IMG/VR virus record: IMGVR_UViG_3300025418_000608
Coordinates: 1 to 21,114 of that record
From: a virus
Strand: one strand, 5' to 3'
Length of the DNA: 21,114 nucleotides
This document shows positions 1 to 7,734 of the stretch, in pieces. A program made the position numbers and the translations under genes. How positions within the stretch are numbered: the stretch's first letter is position 1; every line of letters begins with the position of its first letter. The notes beneath the pieces are model-generated. The model did no database searches. It was given only the letters and a program-made list of their open reading frames with translations, and was not told the DNA's origin.

Positions 1-22
1 CTCCAGCGATGAGCTTCTTCAC
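1..22 (-). CDS. 5' end of a gene cut by the window edge
   Basis: A GTG start overlaps the TGA stop of the upstream gene as GTGA, with a good GGAGGG ribosome binding site three bases before it. Only seven codons are visible (M-K-K-L-I-A-G), so the product cannot be named. The call rests on the tight stop-start overlap and the ribosome binding site, a pattern used throughout this window. Confidence 0.5.
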
Positions 23-159
23 TTGCCCTCCGTTGCGTCCAGTACCTTGATTACGTCGCAGGGGTGAACCATCGCCCCGCCACAGGCCATGCACCTTCCC
101 CCATCCCAGGCAATCTTGCGGTGCTTCTCTCGTAGGGCTTGGCGTTCGTCGGGGGTCAT
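19..159 (-). CDS. Small Cys protein, modular paralog family member A
   Basis: This 46-residue protein begins MTPDERQALREKH, continues with a C-x2-C pair (CMAC) and ends with the block HPCDVIKVLDATE. The same opening and PCDVIKVLDA blocks recur in the genes at 379-906 and 899-1144, and the opening recurs in the gene at 1213-1350. The three cysteines and nearby histidines suggest a small metal-binding fold. Short Cys proteins of this general look are common in actinobacterial phages, but I know of no assigned function. The ATG overlaps the upstream stop (ATGA). Its DNA shares a perfect 30-base and a perfect 29-base stretch with the gene at 379-906, so the duplication looks recent. Confidence 0.85.
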   Translation of the reverse strand: MTPDERQALREKHRKIAWDGGRCMACGGAMVHPCDVIKVLDATEGK

Positions 160-248
160 AGTTCACCTTTCAAGGTAAATTCGGCTGCCTGTAGCCACTC
201 AAGGTCGTCCTCGCCCGCCCGCATTGTGTCACGTTGTAATTTATTCAT
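156..248 (-). CDS. 30-residue hypothetical protein
   Basis: A short reading frame encodes a charged, probably helical peptide beginning MNKLQRDTMRAGEDD. Its TGA overlaps the ATG of the next gene as ATGA, the linkage used by most neighbours, which is the main reason to call it. The ribosome binding site is poor (AAAGGCG just before ATG). It sits downstream of a 130-base gap that holds an 8-bp inverted repeat. No function is suggested, and it could simply be a leader peptide for the next gene. Confidence 0.5.
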   Translation of the reverse strand: MNKLQRDTMRAGEDDLEWLQAAEFTLKGEL

Positions 249-378
249 TTTTCGCCTTTTGAGCCTGACGGGCTATCTAGGGCTTCACCCGTCAGAGTGG
301 ACGTTAGTATTTCATTACGGTGATTAACTCCGATGAATCCCCTAAATCCACTTTGTAAAGTTTTAAATTTTACTTGCG
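249..378. other. 130-base AT-rich gap with an inverted repeat
   Basis: No gene is supported here. The stretch is clearly richer in A and T than the rest of the window, especially 340-378. It contains the perfect 8-bp inverted repeat described at 265-295. I could not find a convincing -35/-10 pair, so a local promoter is possible but not shown. Confidence 0.6.
265..295 (-). repeat. Inverted repeat in the leader of the last small genes
   Basis: CTGACGGG at 265-272 pairs perfectly with CCCGTCAG at 288-295 across a 15-base loop. On the minus strand the hairpin lies 17 bases before the 30-residue gene. No T-run follows it, so a standard intrinsic terminator is unlikely. It could be an RNA structure that affects processing or translation, or a protein-binding site. 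Confidence 0.5.
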
Positions 379-906
379 TCATAATTTCATTTTGCACTTC
401 ACGCAATAGAGGCAGTCCATCACCACAGGAGGCAAGTTTAGGTAGTAAAAAGAAGTTTCAATAGTTTTTGTTTCATTGTGGTCGCAACTAGGTAATAGTT
501 TCTCTCCGCACTTGGGGCAGTAGGTGAAGGCAAAGTCAGTCTGGCCGTGTTCGATAACATCCCAGCCTTCGGGCAACGTCATTAGTCCGATGATGTGGGT
601 GCACTCAACTTTAGTTTTTAGGTCGTTAGGCTTTAGTTCTTCGGTAGCGTCCAGTACCTTGATTACGTCGCAGGGGAACATTACGAGGTCGCCGGCGATG
701 TCACCGCAGAACGTGCAGTGCCAGAACCATTCGCTGTATTTGTGGATTCCATCTTCAGAGGCTCCGCACTTTACCTGAGCCCCTTCTCTGAGGGAGGCCA
801 GCAGAACTTCGCTATGGGGCCACTCGCACTTGATGCAGTAGGGCTCAAGGCCGTCCTCGTCTCTACGGTGCTTCTCTCGTAGGGCTTGGCGTTCTTCTTT
901 AGTCAT
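379..906 (-). CDS. Multi-Cys zinc-finger-like protein, modular family member B
   Basis: The 175-residue protein opens MTKEERQALREKHR, has Cys pairs YCIKC and HCTFC in its first half, then the shared block FPCDVIKVLDATEE. A C-terminal extension carries more pairs (YCPKCGEKL, DCLYC, CVKC), as in zinc ribbons. It therefore looks like family members A and C with an insert and an added domain. The chosen ATG gives an 8-base overlap with the upstream gene, follows GGTGG, and matches the start of its paralogs; a longer frame to 975 is open but would overlap more. The 3' half is unusually AT-rich for this window, which suggests separate acquisition. Function unknown. Confidence 0.85.
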   Translation of the reverse strand: MTKEERQALREKHRRDEDGLEPYCIKCEWPHSEVLLASLREGAQVKCGASEDGIHKYSEWFWHCTFCGDIAGDLVMFPCDVIKVLDATEELKPNDLKTKVECTHIIGLMTLPEGWDVIEHGQTDFAFTYCPKCGEKLLPSCDHNETKTIETSFYYLNLPPVVMDCLYCVKCKMKL

Positions 907-1144
907 CGTTTCCACCTGCCCAATTATCCGATTCGGCGTCGGCAACAGAACCCTTGAAACCATCATCGTATCCACGTTCGTAATTTATCGCCGCCTGAAA
1001 GTTTGCTTCTTTCAGTGCATCCAGCACCTTGATTACGTCGCAGGGGTAATCGGCTGGGTAGCCACCGTCTTTGGTGCAGAAACCGCAATAGTCGCCAAGA
1101 TAGGTGTGCTTCTCTCGTAGGACTTTACGTTCTTCGGGGGTCAT
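899..1144 (-). CDS. Small Cys protein, modular family member C
   Basis: The 81-residue protein opens MTPEERKVLREKH, has the pair YCGFC, then YPCDVIKVLDALKE, followed by an acidic tail. The start at 1144 is chosen because it aligns with the openings of its paralogs, but it has no clear ribosome binding site. A GTG at 1216 in the same frame overlaps the upstream stop as GTGA and would add 24 residues; I cannot exclude it. Its stop overlaps the gene at 379-906. A small metal-binding role is inferred from the cysteines only. Confidence 0.8.
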   Translation of the reverse strand: MTPEERKVLREKHTYLGDYCGFCTKDGGYPADYPCDVIKVLDALKEANFQAAINYERGYDDGFKGSVADAESDNWAGGNDD

Positions 1145-1212
1145 TGTGGCTGAACGTTCACTAGCGCCTTCTGTGGTCGAGCGGTCACTTGTGTTGTTTT
1201 CGTATCGGTTTG

Positions 1213-1350
1213 TCACGAGTGCGCCCAGAAACCGTAGGTGCAGACCCCGAACAAGAACGCCCAGCAACCGAGAGCCAGGGCGTAGGCGAAGCAGTAGGAG
1301 CCGTACTGCCGGTGCTTCTCTCGTAGTTCTTGGCGCTGTTCCGGTGTCAC
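1213..1350 (-). CDS. Modular family member D: shared N-terminus joined to a membrane segment
   Basis: The 45-residue frame starts GTG, overlapping the upstream TGA as GTGA. It opens TPEQRQELREKHR like its three paralogs, but instead of a Cys pair and PCDVIKVLD it continues into a hydrophobic stretch (about residues 21-42, rich in A, L, F, W, Y, C) that could span a membrane, and ends WAHS. It was missed by simple ATG-based calling because of its GTG start. The DNA around the start (1310-1326) is nearly identical to the other copies. It may be an exchange of the second module or a decayed copy. Confidence 0.7.
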   Translation of the reverse strand: MTPEQRQELREKHRQYGSYCFAYALALGCWAFLFGVCTYGFWAHS

Positions 1351-1529
1351 TTGCACTCCTTGCCACAGCCGAGGCAGGTCACGGTGTCGCCGTTGCCGTC
1401 AATGAGATCAGCGTCGGCATCACGGAACCAGCCAAACAGTTTCGCCCAGCACTCGGGGCAGAAGATTTGCCAGACACCGTGGGTGAACAGACCGTAGGCG
1501 ATGGGCTTGGTCGTGGGCTTGCTCATCAT
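1347..1529 (-). CDS. Small Cys-pair protein
   Basis: This 60-residue protein carries two widely spaced Cys pairs, FCPEC in the middle and CLGC followed by KECK at the end, consistent with a single zinc-binding knuckle. Its ATG overlaps the previous stop (ATGA), and its own stop overlaps the next GTG (GTGA), so translation is probably coupled on both sides. No family recognised. Confidence 0.8.
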   Translation of the reverse strand: MMSKPTTKPIAYGLFTHGVWQIFCPECWAKLFGWFRDADADLIDGNGDTVTCLGCGKECK

Positions 1530-4356: not shown

Positions 4357-5198
4357 TGGTAGTCCTCCTCAGCGTTCTTCGCCCAATCGCGAAGTTTGGT
4401 TAGTTTGTCGTTCTTGAATCGTGATTTCAGGGTGGGATAGTGCTTCTTGAAAGTGAGCGGCGTGAGAATCACAGCGAGCCAGAACGAATCTTGCATCGCC
4501 CACTCGAGGATGTCGGTCAGTTCCTCGAGGTCGTTGCTTCGCAGCATCGCCTGGAAACCGTTGACTTGGGCCTTCGTCACCTTGAAGTTAGGAAGGCCGT
4601 TGTCGTTGAGACGAGACTGGAACAGGTCGATGAGACCGAGCACCTCCGCGCTCGCCAACGGCGACGCAGAAGTTAACTGTTGTTCCTTAGTTGTCTCTCC
4701 TTCATTGATACTCCTTCTTGTTAGTGCATTTTTGCCCTGACCATAGTGCAAATCTGCACTATCCCTTAGTGCATAATTGCCCTGACCATAGTGCACGGTT
4801 GCACCCATCTCAGCGCTCTTAGGCCAGATGTAGTATTCCGAAGAAGTGTAGGAACCGTCCTGCCTTTTTTGGCGAATTGCTAGGACTGCGCCGACCCTAA
4901 TGAGCTCGTTGATGGCTCGCTTCACGGTGTCCGCAGACACGCCAACTGTCTTGCCGATGGTCTTGTGTGAGGGCCACGCCGCTTCGTTCGCTCCGACAAA
5001 TCGGTCGATAACTCCGAATATCCGAACGGCGGTTGTGCTCAGTTCAGGGTGGTAAAGAATCCACTCAGGGATGACCGCAAAGCGGTGATTTCGTTTTGAT
5101 AGACTCGCTTGCACGAGTGACTCCTGTCCGCTAGGTGTTGCTCGAGAGGGGCGTAGGGGGTGACTACCCTGCGCCTCTCGCTCTTTTAATGATACCAC
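4350..5198 (-). CDS. Replication initiator with winged-helix domain
   Basis: The 282-residue protein has a winged helix-turn-helix of the HTH_36 type at about residues 35-120 (LSTTAVRIFGVIDRFVG, SHKTIGKTVGVSADTVKRAI, LIRVGAVLAIRQKR). A flexible middle at about residues 135-160 holds a repeated HYGQGxxAL encoded by 30-base DNA repeats, and the helical C-terminus (FQAMLRSNDLEELTDILEWAMQD) resembles DnaD-like replication proteins. It should bind the origin, probably the repeats within its own gene, and hand over to the loader encoded next. The start is GTG at 5198, overlapping the upstream TAG and following GGGGGAG. Confidence 0.85.
   Translation of the reverse strand: MVSLKEREAQGSHPLRPSRATPSGQESLVQASLSKRNHRFAVIPEWILYHPELSTTAVRIFGVIDRFVGANEAAWPSHKTIGKTVGVSADTVKRAINELIRVGAVLAIRQKRQDGSYTSSEYYIWPKSAEMGATVHYGQGNYALRDSADLHYGQGKNALTRRSINEGETTKEQQLTSASPLASAEVLGLIDLFQSRLNDNGLPNFKVTKAQVNGFQAMLRSNDLEELTDILEWAMQDSFWLAVILTPLTFKKHYPTLKSRFKNDKLTKLRDWAKNAEEDYQW
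4721..4795. repeat. Iteron-like repeats, candidate replication origin
   Basis: Two 30-base direct repeats, 4721-4750 and 4766-4795, match at 28 of 30 positions with starts 45 bases apart. Each starts TTAGTGCAT and ends CCATAGTGCA. The hexamer AGTGCA occurs four times in one orientation (4723, 4745, 4768, 4790) and once inverted (4755). ATAGTGCA at 4743-4750 and TGCACTAT at 4755-4762 form a perfect 8-bp inverted repeat. Initiator-binding iterons inside the initiator gene are known from lambda O and SPP1 gene 38. The repeats also encode the HYGQGxxAL peptide repeat. Confidence 0.7.
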
Positions 5199-5776
5199 TA
5201 CTTCTCCCCCTTCCGGCGGCGCTCACGGGCCGCGTTCCATGCGTCCGAGTGCGCTTTGCGACAGGCTACACAACGAACCTTGTGACCGGCCTTAGATCCG
5301 CCCAGGAGCGCTGCCTGACGTGCAAGCAACTGGTAGCCGTAGTCCGTGCCGCAACTCGGGTGAAAGCCCTCGGGGTCGTAGGAGATGAGCTTCGCCACGC
5401 GCCGCTCGTAGGTGGCGTGGGCTCGCTCGCAGTCCTCGCAATAGAACTCCATCTCTAGGCTGTAGAGGTAGCCCTGCTCGCTTCCGCAGTACGGGTGCCT
5501 GATGCGCTCCTCGACATCTCGACGCTCTCGGGCGATGGTGATGTGGCGCTCCTTGCGGATCTGTCGAAGTTCAGAGGCCGTCGCTCCGCCCCAGATGCCA
5601 TAGACCTCGTTCTCTAGGCCCATCTGAAGGCAGGGCTCTTGGTAGGGGCACTCCTGGCACAGTAACTTCGCCTGCGCCTCTAGGAGCATCCTGATGCCCT
5701 TCTCCGTGCCTTCTGGTGGGTAGAACACCTGCGTCTTGCCTCGGCAGAGAGGGTTGGGGAACTTGTGAACCTTCAT
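5198..5776 (-). CDS. WhiB-like protein with two Cys repeats at the C-terminus
   Basis: The 192-residue protein has the four WhiB cysteines (C11, C40, C43, C49; pattern C-x2-C-x5-C) and the GIWGG turn at 60-64, followed by the basic TASELRQIRKER stretch. WhiB proteins hold a 4Fe-4S cluster and usually bind the main sigma factor. Unlike a typical WhiB of about 80-120 residues, this one has two further units (HPYCGSEQGY...CEDCERAH and HPSCGTDYGY...CVACRKAH) and a basic end. Start ATG 5776 overlaps the upstream stop (ATGA). Phage WhiBs can interfere with host WhiB regulation; which genes this one affects is unknown. Confidence 0.9.
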   Translation of the reverse strand: MKVHKFPNPLCRGKTQVFYPPEGTEKGIRMLLEAQAKLLCQECPYQEPCLQMGLENEVYGIWGGATASELRQIRKERHITIARERRDVEERIRHPYCGSEQGYLYSLEMEFYCEDCERAHATYERRVAKLISYDPEGFHPSCGTDYGYQLLARQAALLGGSKAGHKVRCVACRKAHSDAWNAARERRRKGEK

Positions 5777-6159
5777 GAGGCCATCGTCCGTTCGCGCTTG
5801 AAGTTGTAGTCGTAGTGCGCCAGCAGGCACTTCTTGCAGGCTGGGATGGTCGGGTCTATCTTGCGTCGACGGTGAAGCCAGACGTAGCCCTTGTTCGTGC
5901 CACAGCCTCGGTGAGGTTCCTGCACGATGACCTCGGGGCGCTCGACGGTGATGCCTCGCTCTTTGCGTATCTCGACCCTCTGCTCGGGCGTAGTGCCTCC
6001 CCAGATGCCAAACTCCTCGTGCTTGAGGCCTCGCTCTAGGCAGGCGGTTTGCAACGTGCAGTTCTTGCACAGTGCTAGGGCTCGACGGCGGAACTTGGAC
6101 TGCGTGGAGTAGAAGATGCGAACGTCCACGCCGTAGCAGGCGTTCACTCCGTAATCCAT
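5773..6159 (-). CDS. WhiB-like protein with one Cys repeat at the C-terminus
   Basis: The 128-residue protein has WhiB cysteines C8, C31, C34 and C40, GIWGG at 51-55 and the TPEQRVEIRKER stretch. A single C-terminal unit (HRGCGTNKGY...CKKCLLAHYDY) matches the two units in the next gene, so the pair arose by duplication or domain addition. The ATG at 6159 overlaps the upstream membrane-protein gene by 16 bases; a longer frame to 6210 is open but would overlap further and lose the short N-terminus normal for WhiB. Probably an iron-sulfur transcription cofactor acting on sigma factor. Confidence 0.9.
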   Translation of the reverse strand: MDYGVNACYGVDVRIFYSTQSKFRRRALALCKNCTLQTACLERGLKHEEFGIWGGTTPEQRVEIRKERGITVERPEVIVQEPHRGCGTNKGYVWLHRRRKIDPTIPACKKCLLAHYDYNFKRERTMAS

Positions 6160-6335
6160 GCGAGCAGGGTTGCCATAGCGACGGCGGCGAGGCATCCAGC
6201 GCCGATGCACCAGAGAGGGTTGGCGGTGGTCGTGAAGCCGTGGGTCTTCGCCGCCTCGGTCAGCCAGCCGGTCACGATGCCGGTGACGTAGGTGAGAGCG
6301 ATGCCGCCCTTACGGTCGATGGGTAATTTAGTCAT
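6144..6335 (-). CDS. Small two-segment membrane protein
   Basis: The 63-residue protein has a moderately hydrophobic segment at about residues 11-26 (GIALTYVTGIVTGWL) and a stronger one at 41-62 (LWCIGAGCLAAVAMATLLAW). It is the first gene after the 6373-6402 promoter and has a GAGGAGGACAAA ribosome binding site identical in its core to that of the gene at 1840. It is distant from the lysis genes, so I do not call it a holin. Possibly a membrane protein altering the host envelope early in infection; unproven. Confidence 0.8.
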   Translation of the reverse strand: MTKLPIDRKGGIALTYVTGIVTGWLTEAAKTHGFTTTANPLWCIGAGCLAAVAMATLLAWITE

Positions 6336-6779: not shown

Positions 6780-7180
6780 TACCACGCCTCCTCTGCGGTG
6801 CTCTTGACGGCGTAGGAGTTGGCAGGGGTGGAGCGGTTGGTCTGCGCCGTCGCCCAGCGCAGGTCGGGGCCACACGCTTCGACCTTCACCTCGGTCACAC
6901 TGCGCTTGTTGCCGTCCTTGTCATCGTAGGAGCGCTGTTCGAGCGTTCCCGTGACGATGGCGCGGTCGCCCTTGCGGAGACTGTTCTGGATGTTCTCGGC
7001 AATCGTGCCCAGCGCCGAGCAGTCGAAGAACGAGGTCTGCTCCTGGGGCTCGCCTCGCTTGTCCTTCCACTTGCGCGTTACTGCGATGCTGAACTTCGCC
7101 GCCGCCGTTCCTGAATCAAGGAAGCGGATCTCTGGGTCTCGGGTGATGTTCCCGACGAGTGTGATGGTGGCATCAGCCAT
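6779..7180 (-). CDS. ssb: Single-stranded DNA-binding protein
   Basis: The 133-residue protein has a clear OB-fold SSB pattern: ITLVGNITRDPEIRF, AAAKFSIAVTRKW, then SFFDCSALGTIAENI, LRKGDRAIVTGTLEQRSYDDKDGNKRS. It coats single-stranded DNA in replication and recombination, probably as a tetramer. The C-terminal region is short and ends STAEEAW, without the acidic DDDIPF-type tip that host SSBs use to recruit partners, so it may not recruit host repair proteins in the usual way. ATG at 7180 overlaps the upstream TAA as TAATG, right after the Erf-like gene. Confidence 0.93.
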   Translation of the reverse strand: MADATITLVGNITRDPEIRFLDSGTAAAKFSIAVTRKWKDKRGEPQEQTSFFDCSALGTIAENIQNSLRKGDRAIVTGTLEQRSYDDKDGNKRSVTEVKVEACGPDLRWATAQTNRSTPANSYAVKSTAEEAW

Positions 7181-7734
7181 TAGTTTGTCTCCTCTTTGTT
7201 GAGTTCGTTGATAATTGCACTGCACTCTTCCTCGGTGAGCTCGTACAGCCCAGCGAGTGACCGCCCAGCCTTCGCTTCGAGGTAGAACTTACGGTCGGCG
7301 GTGTCGGGGTGGCTCTTGAGAAGCAACTCGCGCACCTTCTTCTGGCTGTCGCTAAGGGGGTTTGCCGCCGGACGCTCAGCGACCTGCTGGCGGTTGCGCA
7401 CTTCCTCGCTGGATGCGATGCCCTTCTTCGTGTCGACGGCGAGGGCTGCGACCATCGCTCGACCCCATGCGGCGGTCTCAGCGTTCTGGACTTCGCTGTC
7501 TCGGGTGTACGGGGTCGGCCCAGGTACGGGCTCCCACGCCGTGCCGATGCCTGGACGCTCATCGTCGGGAGTGCGGTACGCCGCAGCCGTGTAGACCACC
7601 CACGACTTGTTGGCAAAGTCGATGAACTTGATGTCCACCTGCTGAAGCGATCCGTTCGGGAACTTCTCGCGGAACTCGACGATGCGCGTGGCTACGTCGA
7701 TGTAGTCCAGTGGGCCCTTGAAGTCCTTAGCCAT
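7180..7734 (-). CDS. Erf-like single-strand annealing protein candidate
   Basis: The 184-residue protein has the pattern YTAAAYRTPDDERPGIGTAWEP, TRDSEVQNAETAAWGRAMVA and GIASSEEV, typical of phage Erf-type annealing proteins (NAETSAxGRAL then a short gap and IASxEE). These bind single strands and pair complementary DNA for recombination or end repair. It lies directly before SSB, a common arrangement. The C-terminal third (SQKKVRELLLKSHPDT...) is helical and may be an add-on. Confidence is limited because the family is diverse and recognition is by pattern alone. Confidence 0.72.
   Translation of the reverse strand: MAKDFKGPLDYIDVATRIVEFREKFPNGSLQQVDIKFIDFANKSWVVYTAAAYRTPDDERPGIGTAWEPVPGPTPYTRDSEVQNAETAAWGRAMVAALAVDTKKGIASSEEVRNRQQVAERPAANPLSDSQKKVRELLLKSHPDTADRKFYLEAKAGRSLAGLYELTEEECSAIINELNKEETN

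Follow-up and report, generated by a model that had tools for sequence, protein, structure and literature searches.

How do several small genes of a phage, lying side by side, come to share short stretches of sequence and to differ in length and content between them? The question is raised by one end of an entire, linear IMG/VR record of 21,114 bases, probably a fragment, which was analysed at full length and is referred to here as the window. The initial annotation had recognised four such genes; their coordinates (Table 1) are right and all four lie on the minus strand, as do all clear genes of the window. It was also correct that the opening MTxEERxxLREKH is common to all four and that PCDVIKVLDA is present in three. 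From the right side of the window, the tail genes are followed by an endolysin-like gene, SSB, two WhiB-like genes, a replication initiator, an HNH gene, a VRR-NUC/endonuclease, and then the four-gene cluster. The two WhiB-like genes (5198-6210, minus strand) are dissimilar and arranged in tandem. Immediately upstream of the cluster lies a 60-aa Cys-rich ORF outside the family (1347-1529, minus strand; CPECWAKLFG...CLGCGKECK).

Table 1 Cluster genes, a small neighbouring ORF, and the conserved blocks within the genes (window positions)
Feature	Positions	Strand	Composition or role
Member 1, 46 aa	19..159	-	head, middle type M4 (RKIAWDGGRCMACGGAMVH), core, tail ATEGK
Member 2, 175 aa	379..906	-	head, long middle with two CxxC pairs, core, tail T1
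Member 3, 81 aa	899..1144	-	head, middle M7 (TYLGDYCGFCTKDGGYPADY), core, tail with NYERGYDDGFKGSVADAE
Member 4, 45 aa	1213..1350	-	head, first codons of middle M21, hydrophobic end; no core block
Small ORF	156..248	-	ends DLEWLQAAEFTLKGEL, resembling tail module DFEWLQTAEFTLKGEL fused to family members elsewhere
Head block, member 1	121..159	-	recombination joint
Head block, member 2	868..906	-	junction in L005, 866 side joined to 119-162
Head block, member 3	1106..1144	-	repeat
Head block, member 4	1312..1350	-	repeat
Core block, member 1 (PCDVIKVLDA)	34..63	-	
Core block, member 2	646..675	-	
Core block, member 3	1016..1045	-	junction in L008/L030: member 3 front and member 1 tail

The observed architecture consists of a head block, a variable Cys-loop, a core block and a variable tail, and a protein search found only the four family loci in the window (E values of 3e-57, 7e-10, 1e-5 and 4e-4). 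Tail T1 of member 2 contains a zinc-ribbon-like segment, CPKCGEKL, and an additional Cys-rich end, and the start of this gene overlaps the end of member 3 by 8 bases. Member 4 starts with GTG at 1350, with an alternative in-frame start at 1356; its head is followed by RQYGSYCFA, the beginning of a known middle module, and then by an unrelated hydrophobic end. A tail near-identical to the end of the small ORF at 156-248 was found fused to family members in two other contigs (L055 and L037). It is possible that tails also travel as separate genes or in company with them.

At the DNA level, a repeat search of the window returned two families, D1 (119-163, 866-910, 1104-1148 and 1310-1354) and D2 (20-64, 632-676 and 1002-1046). 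The identities reported earlier were confirmed: 119-147 equals 866-894, 35-64 equals 647-676, and 1017-1046 mismatches at 2 of 30 positions. These repeats are placed within coding sequences, and homology does not run into the intergenic DNA but ends at the start codon or past it. Among genes unrelated in both middle and tail, the Arg codon of LREKH is identical in 92% of pairs compared to 20% expected, the Val codon of PCDV in 81% (25% expected) and the Pro codon of the core block in 74% (26% expected); the expectation for synonymous codons was taken from long ORFs and is approximate. As far as can be judged from the sequences, this codon-level conservation fits repeated homologous exchange via the blocks. 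Selection on the joints themselves could add to it and is not separable from exchange.

The conserved part of the four proteins had no match in Pfam or PHROGs at useful E-values, and a tblastn search of annotated phages (INPHARED) with members 2 and 3 gave no real match; a hit to Streptomyces phage VWB was rejected on inspection. A scan of 84,980 species genomes of bacteria and archaea turned up no host copy, within the sensitivity of that search. In IMG/VR the family is common, with 128 stretches from a single scan, and the exact core-block 20-mer CCCTGCGACGTAATCAAGGT was matched in 85 stretches, against a chance expectation that we estimate at well below one. The proteins are mostly 45-180 residues long. 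Relatives without the blocks would have spoken against the initial annotation; those in IMG/VR retain them. Whether copies always lie in clusters, as it had asked, can be affirmed only in part: with 1-5 copies per contig, they are adjacent in most multi-copy contigs, but four contigs have an additional distant copy. These second, weaker copies contain in-frame stops and were seen at G001:82843-82995, G002:44441-44590, G003:16904-17053 and G004:75980-76126; lying about 5-11 kb from an intact copy, they are possible pseudogenes. Since WhiB, which is specific to actinobacteria, is encoded in 33 of 40 family-bearing contigs, and twice in the window, the hosts are most likely actinobacteria.

Across 30 diverse members H13, C20 and C35 are invariant, and C23 is present in at least 90%. 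In the AlphaFold model of member 3, residues 1-46 reach a pLDDT of about 90, with a helix at 3-12, a hairpin at 19-32 and a second helix at 36-56. Alignment and model together suggest a fixed scaffold of helix, zinc knuckle and helix with a variable loop and tail, in which the zinc is inferred. The core Cys, for which a metal site had been considered in the initial annotation, plausibly completes such a site with the head His and the CxxC pair, metal binding again being an inference. The resulting H-C-C-C site likely holds zinc, which is inferred without metal data. The second loop Cys, or even the entire core, is missing from a few members, so zinc is not obligatory in all of them. A PDB fold search with the model gave no match at E <= 0.001 and none at Z >= 2. 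The top viral fold matches were mostly small unnamed phage proteins, those with named hosts mainly from actinophages, and none was significant. Matches to 4D2 in a PDB profile search cover 10 residues and were disregarded.

The combinatorial use of modules became apparent when 127 distinct relatives from IMG/VR phage contigs were split at the head and core blocks. Their middles fall into 50 types and their tails into 45, and 93 combinations of the two occur; among the 27 middle types represented by two or more genes, 22 are paired with at least two tails. In 102 gene pairs the middle DNA is at least 90% identical and the tail below 55%, and in 69 pairs the relation is the opposite. The module graph contains 13 independent cycles, or 6 after clustering of the modules at 85% DNA identity; cycles are not expected from a tree without exchange. 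Where two genes share only one side, the breakpoint falls 12-17 nt past the L of LREKH in 55 of 91 pairs, 18-35 nt past the core Cys in 119 of 169, and 0-11 nt ahead of the core Cys in 202 of 244. Inside the modules pN/pS amounts to 0.34 for middles and 0.45 for tails, which means that the products are under purifying selection. The initial annotation had read the genes as duplicates that swapped their middles and ends, possibly through recombination at the modules they share. This proposal is supported by the reticulate combinations, by breakpoints concentrated at the blocks, and by predicted recombinants in near-identical contigs. It has to be refined in two respects: the exchange spans many phages and is not merely a local duplication, and isolated mycobacteriophages have the same scheme.

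Contigs that are 99.3-99.9% identical to the window contain different alleles joined exactly at the blocks. The window arrangement itself is repeated in G005/L028, with 99.8% identity over 7.1 kb. In L005 (99.5% over 3.7 kb) member 2 was lost through a head-block joint, and the fused gene has its start from member 2 and the remainder from member 1. The joint between members 3 and 1 in L008 and L030 lies within the core block; L030 has a different metagenome id, and its sequence downstream of this L008-type deletion is 99.9% identical. The downstream flank is common to L005, L008, L030 and L028 at 98-99.7%. L029 is near-identical to the window until the head block of member 1 (around 6983-7100 of L029) and then continues as a different phage lineage; this switch could reflect a genuine crossover or a chimeric assembly and was not used as evidence. 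The metagenome evidence consists of assembled contigs without reads, and samples possibly share reads. Between the genes flanking the cluster, L008 (3689-5579) and L030 contain about 1.4 kb of additional DNA without counterpart in L005 and L028, which reads by eye as a cytosine-5 DNA methyltransferase-like gene.

A weak tblastn lead pointed to phages of Mycobacterium and Gordonia, which encode small proteins of the layout RELH-CxxC-WPCDT (PHROG 780 and neighbours), a group of 543 records. The comparison of the window family (A2) with a mycobacteriophage family (A5) by hhalign, a single pair, gave a probability of 97.9 and an E value of 6e-13, and these profile alignments support a remote homology between the window family and the mycobacteriophage proteins. 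By profile comparison the layout of an actinophage superfamily of small H-C-C-C proteins (R-x-L/K-H, CxxC, W/Y-P-C-D) was recovered. The actinophage proteins of PHROG 780/31242/6237/23623, whose function is unknown, have the same RELH...CxxC...WPCDT layout and the same loop exchange as the window family, but their N-terminal part is longer, their block DNA is different, and direct HMM matches are absent or marginal: the phrog_780 HMM matched in none of 10 family-carrying IMG/VR contigs, and two members gave weak matches to related PHROGs (E 0.02-0.2). Loop exchange is directly visible in the isolates. StephanieG and I3 are 100% identical in head DNA, 43% in the loop and 83% in the core; for Krakatau and Ryadel these values are 98%, 45% and 87%, and between Ryadel and Obutu the loop is 100% and the head 85% identical. 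BLAST alignments stop exactly at the loop edge, as between SirHarley and Labeouficaum, which are 93.8% identical until base 618, with the loop beginning at 619. In the mycobacteriophage homologues L188 (158-195) and L189 (146-183) a third DNA-conserved block was noted at the gene start, identical in 38 of 38 bases. The mycobacteriophage data suggest three joints per gene. Fruitloop gp52, a Wag31 inhibitor, was considered as a functional relative and rejected, as it lacks the H-CxxC-PC layout.

Could the pattern have arisen by ordinary divergence, with a functionally conserved head and core and with loops and tails that diverged fast through point mutations and indels after duplication? The invariant His, the PCD motif and the helices do sit in head and core, which speaks for a real protein constraint. 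Such divergence without exchange is nevertheless very improbable, given almost identical middles with unrelated tails and the converse, contigs that are 99% identical overall and differ by entire modules at the blocks, and synonymous sites in the blocks that are conserved more than codon usage predicts. That assemblers joined or collapsed copies at the 30-base repeats is a more technical concern. The window stops 18 bases past member 1, a place typical of assembly breaks, and L029 connects two phage lineages at a head block. Against this stand the repetition of the window arrangement in L028, that of the L008 deletion under another metagenome id, and module recombination between lineages that are only about 70-75% identical. 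As loop swaps of the same type occur in finished isolate genomes, the assembly objection is removed for the exchange phenomenon, and we regard an artefact as hardly credible.

If exchange is accepted, its products might still be mostly inert, the blocks recombining as selfish or neutral repeats and the diversity not being selected. Small clusters, a copy number that varies from 1 to 5, a truncated copy (member 4) and the stop-interrupted second copies in G001 to G004 would be expected in this case, whereas the reading frames are retained, the Zn-site residues persist across 50 different middles, and pN/pS inside the modules is far below 1. We consider neutral shuffling unlikely. A dedicated site-specific system (invertase, integrase or diversity-generating retroelement) acting at the blocks could account for block DNA that is conserved past the needs of the protein. 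However, the repeats are direct, not inverted, and lie inside coding frames; domain scans of the tested ORFs around the cluster detected no such recombinase; and the junctions are distributed across the whole block instead of one position. Such a system is highly improbable.

We therefore prefer, and hold as probable, that the four genes belong to a multigene family of fixed architecture, whose swappable loop and tail surfaces are shuffled by homologous recombination at the blocks. In the proposed scheme, head and core would encode the two helices, which together with the CxxC of the loop would form the H-C-C-C site likely holding zinc, while loop and tail would be the swappable surfaces. During infection, near-identical head or core blocks of about 30 bases would pair by homologous recombination, either between neighbouring copies or with another phage in the same cell. 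Because the repeats are direct and in frame, loops and tails could be deleted, duplicated or imported with the frame preserved. The recombinase can only be inferred; probably it is a phage-encoded single-strand-annealing or RecE-type enzyme, or host RecA. A gene adjoining SSB (7180-7734, minus strand) belongs to PHROG 23738, of unknown function, and carries a QNAETAAWGRAM motif that, as we presume, recalls Erf-type annealing proteins. As an annealase this gene has no Pfam or PDB support, and it is found in 5 of 40 contigs. Past the cluster, L005 encodes a transglycosylase-like protein and, about 0.9 kb on, a YqaJ/RecE-like exonuclease. The linkage of this exonuclease is suggestive of a role in the recombination, but the enzyme is not established, as no more than 9 of 40 contigs, which are fragments, yielded one. 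The minimal pairing segment is 23-27 bp for Red-beta and 31-34 bp for RecA (PMC3945230); the block repeats of 29-30 bp exceed the former and are close to the latter.

Small genes whose origin and function are unknown abound in phage genomes. The present family illustrates, down to the single base and in culturable isolates, how genes of this kind can be put together from swappable parts at fixed in-frame joints, so that the reshuffled set differs from phage to phage. None of the family members has a known function. That the proteins serve counter-defence or phage-phage competition is a guess, quite possible but short of probable. From the variable surfaces we infer binding to changing targets of the host, its defence or rival phages. 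Tentatively, and with considerable doubt, we extend this to the idea that actinobacteriophages keep a combinatorial repertoire of zinc-knuckle effectors, with coding blocks kept near-identical in DNA for their role as joints and new loops and tails set against changing host or defence targets. The family makes it testable whether short coding repeats act as diversity generators of phages and which targets the variable loops recognise, and constant blocks around a variable loop provide a simple signature to find further recombining gene families.

In T4-type phages, mobile regulatory cassettes are said to mediate the shuffling of small accessory genes through repeated short elements; these are intergenic regulatory stem-loops, whereas the blocks of the window family are coding. 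Recombination at boundary sequences, relaxed phage recombination and the shuffling of protein fragments are already known (PMC3029335, PMC3945230, PMC10684548). In mycobacteriophage mosaicism, repeats of ~50 bp and 29 bp occur at module joints (PMC3029335), and as in the window family short common DNA at module edges lets unrelated modules recombine. However, those joints lie at gene boundaries or ends, while the window family has two inside each small gene, reused over dozens of alleles and in several adjacent copies. Rad52-like phage recombinases perform relaxed homologous recombination with about 23-34 bp of identity, which corresponds to the block length; this was demonstrated in lambdoid phages, and in the window phage no annealase is identified with certainty (PMC3945230). 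The shuffling of phage protein fragments resembles our case as mosaicism at the domain level tied to host interaction (PMC10684548), but what is exchanged in the window family is a loop or tail, some 10-70 residues long, with DNA-conserved joints on its flanks. In the literature searched, which excluded subscription journals, no account was found of small genes that carry two reusable joints in frame and draw on dozens of interchangeable loops and tails. The window family is a new and unusually clear, intragenic form of phage mosaicism at boundary sequences.
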